Made by a program: the position numbers and the translations under genes. The notes beneath the pieces were generated by a model. The model did no database searches and had not been told where the DNA came from. It saw only the letters and a list, made by a program, of their open reading frames with translations. From Alphaproteobacteria bacterium MarineAlpha6_Bin4 (GTDB lineage Bacteria > Pseudomonadota > Alphaproteobacteria > GCA-002720895), in assembly GCA_002937775.1 (NCBI GenBank), contig PTKO01000007.1, positions 1 through 43,115 of the forward strand: 43,115 nt of DNA, read 5' to 3'. Numbering within the stretch: position 1 is the stretch's first letter; the number at the start of each line of letters is the position of its first letter. This document shows positions 33,166 to 33,551 of this stretch, one piece after another.

Positions 33166-33173
33166 GTATTTTT

Positions 33174-33482
33174 ATGGCTGATAAAACTTGGAAAGCTAGA
33201 GAAAGACAAGTTGCTAAGTATTTTAACACAAACAGAACACCTTTAAGTGGAGGGAGTTCGAGACACACAAGGTCCGATTCTTTACATAAAGATTTATTTG
33301 TTGAATGCAAACTTAGAAAAAAACATTCAGTCATTTCTTTATGGGACGAAACAAATGAAATGGCAAAAAAAGAGTCTAAAATTCCGGTAGTTGCTTTATG
33401 TGAATCAGGAAGACCTGGTTTTTGGATCATGGTACATTCTGATGATTTAGAAGAAGTATCTGATATAGTAAAAAAAAAATAA
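33174..33482 (+). CDS. Small putative PD-(D/E)XK nuclease, Holliday-junction-resolvase-like (phage-like family)
   Basis: RERQVAKYF helix, SGGSS, then KDLFVECKLRKK (D...ExK) followed by VVALCESGRPGFWIMVHSDDL. Confidence 0.55.
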   Translation: MADKTWKARERQVAKYFNTNRTPLSGGSSRHTRSDSLHKDLFVECKLRKKHSVISLWDETNEMAKKESKIPVVALCESGRPGFWIMVHSDDLEEVSDIVKKK

Positions 33483-33551
33483 TTTTATAATTTTGTAAAG
33501 AAATAATACTTTGTTTTTTTCGTTATAATTTTAGAATAGAAAAATAGAATT

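Follow-up and report, generated by a model that had tools for sequence, protein, structure and literature searches.

The gap between yebC and tolQ in the window, the whole 43,115-nucleotide stretch of DNA analysed here (contig PTKO01000007.1 of Alphaproteobacteria bacterium MarineAlpha6_Bin4), is occupied by one small gene. We consider it likely that a stand-alone putative Holliday junction resolvase of phage origin, with a PD-(D/E)XK active site, took over this slot, and that ruvA and ruvB were lost together with ruvC.

The gene between yebC and tolQ and its predicted fold

The interval 33166‒33551 is the entire gap between the stop of yebC (33165) and the start of tolQ (33552). Upstream lies the yebC ORF (YebC/PmpR family, 32413‒33165, + strand), and downstream lies the tolQ ORF (33552‒34244, + strand), which opens tolQ-tolR-tolA-tolB-pal. 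As originally predicted, the gap holds only one plausible gene, an ORF at 33174‒33482 on the + strand encoding a protein of 102 amino acids. It starts with an ATG 8 nt past the yebC stop, and its AGG-type Shine-Dalgarno sequence overlaps the end of yebC. An antisense ORF over yebC and the resolvase gene (33068‒33430, − strand) was judged spurious, being interrupted by stop codons in all four relatives examined. The resolvase is 88‒94% identical in four sister genomes, where it occupies the same slot, and among members of the window's family dN is 0.03‒0.08 against a dS of 0.8‒1.9, the latter near saturation. Since the gene is kept in the sister genomes in the same slot with dN far below dS, it is real and not a chance ORF, and it is under strong purifying selection.

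Profile searches of Pfam and NCBIfam with the 102-residue protein gave no family match; in Pfam, this includes RuvC (PF02075, RNase H-like), RecU, and RusA (PF05866). The protein matches PHROG 2002, "Holliday junction resolvase", with E=1e-8 (residues 3‒99 on positions 16‒117 of the 130-position profile), a family name that was itself assigned by remote homology. Each of the 12 relatives tested also gives a match to this profile, and three of the 12 match phrog_244 ("RusA-like") weakly as well. Trp6, Lys7, Glu10, Ala14, Phe17, Asp35, Glu44, and Lys46 are invariant in 44 homologues with identities down to 21%. The predicted layout of E, SGG, D, and ExK is present and invariant in the relatives, so that the acidic residues and the (D/E)-x-K motif expected of the PD-(D/E)XK superfamily are in place. 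Glu10, Asp35, and Glu44-x-Lys46 correspond to the expected PD-(D/E)XK set and are candidate catalytic residues. Scans seeded with very distant phage members gained few extra sequences.

AlphaFold was given the window protein and its homologues. The active-site loop was unsettled in the first model (pLDDT 75.8), and a model with distant phage members added reached a pLDDT of 83.6 and a pTM of 0.76. The predicted fold comprises a helix at residues 6‒16, strands at 41‒47, 70‒76, and 84‒86, and helices at 53‒66 and 89‒100. The likeness to archaeal Hjc that had been proposed from the sequence reappeared in Foldseek searches of the PDB (350,542 chains) with the models: Hjc of P. furiosus and A. fulgidus head the list (1gef, probability 0.99, E 7.5e-3), with 2wiw (E 3.3e-2) and 1gef again near the top for the second model. 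The top matches are nearly all Hjc, at a modest level (E>0.001, TM about 0.5), and the weaker ones are mostly further PD-(D/E)XK nucleases, among them RecU, Cas4, and cap-snatching endonucleases, along with tRNA-splicing endonucleases. Among predicted viral proteins, Foldseek gave 12 matches within E 1e-3, and several of the listed entries are named Holliday junction resolvase. A profile search of PDB sequences did not return Hjc and yielded nothing beyond coiled-coil matches to nucleoprotein TPR, which are due to chance, and an hhalign comparison with one P. furiosus Hjc sequence aligned the ExK region at a level that was not significant.

Loss of RuvABC and distribution of the gene

Profile searches for RuvC (PF02075), the C-terminal RuvB profile RuvB_C (PF05491), and the N-terminal RuvA profile RuvA_N (PF01330) found none of them in the window's own genome (69% complete, 43 contigs) or in the sister genomes (G001‒G005). 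RuvC, RuvA, and RuvB were likewise all not found by profile searches in four genomes of two other families in which the gene is present: G034 (99% complete, one contig), G164 (96%), and G261 and G338 (both 94%). Nearly every other class member is matched by the same profiles, and true RuvB gives E-values of about 1e-80 there; RuvB_N matches in the resolvase-bearing genomes reach only about 1e-5 to 1e-7, as other AAA ATPases do. The ruvC, ruvA, and ruvB genes are missing genome-wide and not just displaced. RecG, a helicase that also drives branch migration, was found in all resolvase-bearing genomes save the two least complete. The genome-wide inventory covered RuvC, RuvA, RuvB, and RecG, and a further resolvase of another family may lie elsewhere in these genomes. 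Separately, three single-contig genomes of 600 kb (G022, G153, and G251) carry RuvC with no detectable RuvA or RuvB.

The resolvase gene is present in eight of the 385 alphaproteobacterial genomes: eight of the 32 that are RuvC-negative and none of the 353 that are RuvC-positive (Fisher p=9e-10; 3e-4 with one vote per family). In RuvC-positive members, yebC is followed by ruvC, for example at locus L208 of G025, which bears out the gene order that the original prediction had taken as usual for the class. Among 80 public homologous loci, yebC is a neighbour of the resolvase gene in all and tolQ in 79, and the same 79 show the order yebC-X-tolQ, the remaining locus being yebC-X. At L104:2118-3020 (CACKTS010000014.1), the resolvase is in frame with an apparent orotate phosphoribosyltransferase (PyrE), a 301-residue ORF in place of tolQ that is either a fusion or an assembly chimera.

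In public genomes, the window's nearest relatives are MAG SP38, ALOHA_A2.5_6, the single cell AG-464-G09, and MarineAlpha6_Bin2. Public yebC-X-tolQ loci also include AG-337-I02, which the literature places in AEGEAN-169, order HIMB59, or SAR11 clade V (PMC8692485, PMC12965618), and MAGs of MarineAlpha5, for which a relation to HIMB59 has been described (PMC8879329). The pairing of the resolvase with RuvABC loss spans at least three bacterial families. One record, "Gammaproteobacteria bacterium TMED225" (L099, NHJW02000023.1), carries an AEGEAN-type yebC-resolvase-tolQ locus almost identical to those of alphaproteobacterial single cells and is probably misnamed.

Phage relatives and other resolvases in the same slot

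The nearest non-cellular relatives of the protein are encoded on IMG/VR contigs (60‒73% identity), and together with the PHROG 2002 match they bear out the suggestion of a phage-like resolvase. In these phages, the gene order is terS-X-terL, with an acetyltransferase gene and a head-tail adaptor gene next downstream. Where contig room permits, terL lies within 900 bases downstream in 75 of 85 viral loci and terS lies upstream in 49 of 58. Neither terS nor terL was found near the resolvase in any cellular locus, and neither yebC nor tolQ in any viral locus. Since the gene sits in the terS-X-terL packaging module, flanked by the genes for the two terminase subunits, small and large, the phage copy would most likely debranch DNA before packaging, a role that has been argued for other phage resolvases (PMC3864405).

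A tree of 81 proteins splits the cellular copies into three groups, namely the window family, family f30, and the AEGEAN-type cells, each set apart among viral sequences. With the 102-column alignment, the AU test disfavours placing every cellular copy in a single clade (p=0.016), while a grouping of f30 with the AEGEAN-type cells is compatible with the data (p=0.33), as is, at the 0.05 level, a grouping of the window family (f1) with the AEGEAN-type cells (p=0.08). In the YebC tree of the hosts, the three lineages come together with weak support (69/52). With so short an alignment and so weak a grouping of the hosts, any count or direction of the transfers is tentative.

Two further types of resolvase were found beside yebC in RuvC-less lineages. 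In family f49 (G053, G177, and G348; loci L207, L205, and L299), a PDDEXK_15 protein (PF24608, E 3e-21; phrog_244 "RusA-like Holliday junction resolvase", 4.5e-14) lies right after yebC and is followed by tilS instead of tolQ; it is 45% identical to proteins of giant Pseudomonas phages. In families f98 (G102, G210, G299, and G376) and f118 (G122), yebC is followed by a RuvC-like phage resolvase and then tolQ (L214, L287‒L290, and L293), with ybgC between resolvase and tolQ in G102, G376, and G122. This resolvase matches phrog_1770 with E-values down to 1e-37 and is 43% identical to the crossover junction endodeoxyribonuclease of Salmonella phage epsilon15, and RuvC (PF02075) is missing from these genomes. 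The f98 genomes are single-contig assemblies of 1.2‒1.3 Mb and possibly belong to Pelagibacterales. RuvA and RuvB were not found in profile searches of G053, G177, G102, and G122. Altogether, half of the RuvC-negative genomes (16/32) carry one of three phage-type resolvases in the yebC-adjacent slot, and most of the others are incomplete assemblies. In G138 (99% complete; L212) and G201 (92%; L216), RuvC, RuvA, and RuvB are absent and no recognisable resolvase lies beside yebC.

These loci suggest that stand-alone resolvases from phages, drawn from at least three families (PHROG 2002, PDDEXK_15/phrog_244, and RuvC-like phrog_1770), have probably displaced the whole of RuvABC several times in streamlined marine Alphaproteobacteria, each in the same yebC-adjacent slot. 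Homologous recombination in these lineages would then depend solely on RecG and a debranching enzyme from phage.

Proposed mechanism, alternatives, and known systems

In the mechanism that we propose, joint molecules made by RecA would be migrated by RecG in place of RuvAB. By analogy with Hjc and RecU, the putative resolvase may bind four-way junctions as a homodimer, and a metal ion held by Glu10, Asp35, and Glu44, with Lys46, would allow two opposing strands to be nicked. The small enzyme would then cut junctions without RuvAB and take over the RuvABC function in vivo. An E. coli ruvABC deletion regains UV resistance with nothing more than RuvC of phage bIL67 (PMC3864405), which shows that a phage resolvase can in principle act without RuvAB. 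Family membership, predicted fold, phage kinship, and the absence of RuvABC all point to what had been predicted from the locus, a phage resolvase in place of RuvC with RuvAB dispensable. No intact ruvCAB was found elsewhere in the genomes searched, the same searches detected recG, and the solved folds nearest to the model, at modest strength, are those of PD-(D/E)XK nucleases.

The absence of RuvABC might be only apparent, owing to incomplete assemblies or divergent genes, with the protein in an accessory role. The window's own genome, 69% complete and in 43 contigs, would allow this. However, the absence recurs in G034, a single contig at 99%, and in G164, G261, and G338, and three separate profiles that match nearly all other class members concur. 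The near-complete relatives rule out incompleteness of the window's genome as the cause, and we regard an apparent absence as very improbable. It is at least as hard to see the gene as a decaying or selfish phage remnant devoid of cellular function. Its closest non-cellular relatives are indeed phage genes, but three bacterial families have retained it, its dN/dS is far below 1, it is tightly spaced to yebC, and no other phage genes accompany it in the cellular loci; as far as sequence can refute such a reading, it is refuted, and we give it hardly any weight.

A less remote alternative is that the nuclease has another housekeeping job, at flaps or forks or in repair nicking, and that RuvABC was lost independently through genome reduction, offset by RecG, YqgF, or nothing. 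PD-(D/E)XK nucleases are functionally diverse, and it is common for phage resolvases to cleave forks and other branched DNA besides junctions (PMC3864405). Loss without replacement may also occur, as G138 suggests, having neither RuvABC nor a recognisable resolvase beside yebC. On the other hand, the gene occupies the exact ruvC slot, the resolvase and RuvC are mutually exclusive across genomes, the nearest solved folds are nearly all Hjc, and other RuvC-less lineages have two more resolvase families at this very position. A different job is unlikely in our judgement, and replacement of RuvABC by the phage-type resolvase remains the preferred explanation.

RuvAB is among the most conserved sets of recombination genes; in a 2005 survey, just two of the genomes with RecA were without it (PMC1193525). 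Here, its loss is clade-wide, and the slot left empty holds a phage nuclease. The bacteria concerned, AEGEAN-169/SAR11 clade V among them, are abundant in the surface ocean. A function is also suggested for a protein family that matches nothing in Pfam or NCBIfam. If the proposal holds, the resolvasome is exchangeable for one small phage protein, and recombination in streamlined marine genomes might then bear the mark of a more promiscuous phage-type enzyme. The kind of enzyme is already known. We found no description of RuvABC replacement in SAR11, HIMB59, AEGEAN-169, or Pelagibacter in the open-licence literature, and a phage resolvase that replaces the whole of RuvABC at the chromosomal site of the ruv genes themselves, with parallel cases from other families, appears to be undescribed.

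Archaeal Hjc is, like the window protein, a small PD-(D/E)XK protein with a comparable E/D/ExK layout, and it is the best fold match in the PDB (1gef and 2wiw). However, the two share only about 16‒23% identity with no significant sequence or profile match, and the window protein is of bacterial and phage occurrence. Since the sequence comparison is not significant, the protein would work like Hjc but is not classed as Hjc. RecU of Firmicutes and Mollicutes is likewise a PD-(D/E)XK resolvase in place of RuvC, but it substitutes for RuvC only and works with RuvAB (PMC1193525, PMC3864405), whereas RuvAB is gone here and the window protein has no RecU profile match. With RuvC itself, the protein shares the chromosomal slot after yebC and a presumed junction-resolving role; RuvC, however, has an unrelated, RNase H-like fold, and the window genome is without its partners RuvA and RuvB. 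RusA of cryptic prophages is also a phage-derived resolvase, and RusA can act without RuvAB. It differs in that the window protein has no PF05866 match and in that RusA lies in prophages and is not the sole resolvase of a ruv locus. The closest likeness is to the PHROG 2002 phages (IMG/VR L131 and L171, and Bacteroides phage BS162P1, where the protein is named "DNA endonuclease"), whose proteins belong to the same profile family with 46‒73% identity and the same invariant E, D, and ExK. The IMG/VR copies lie in the terS-X-terL module, whereas the window copy is chromosomal, in the ruvCAB slot.
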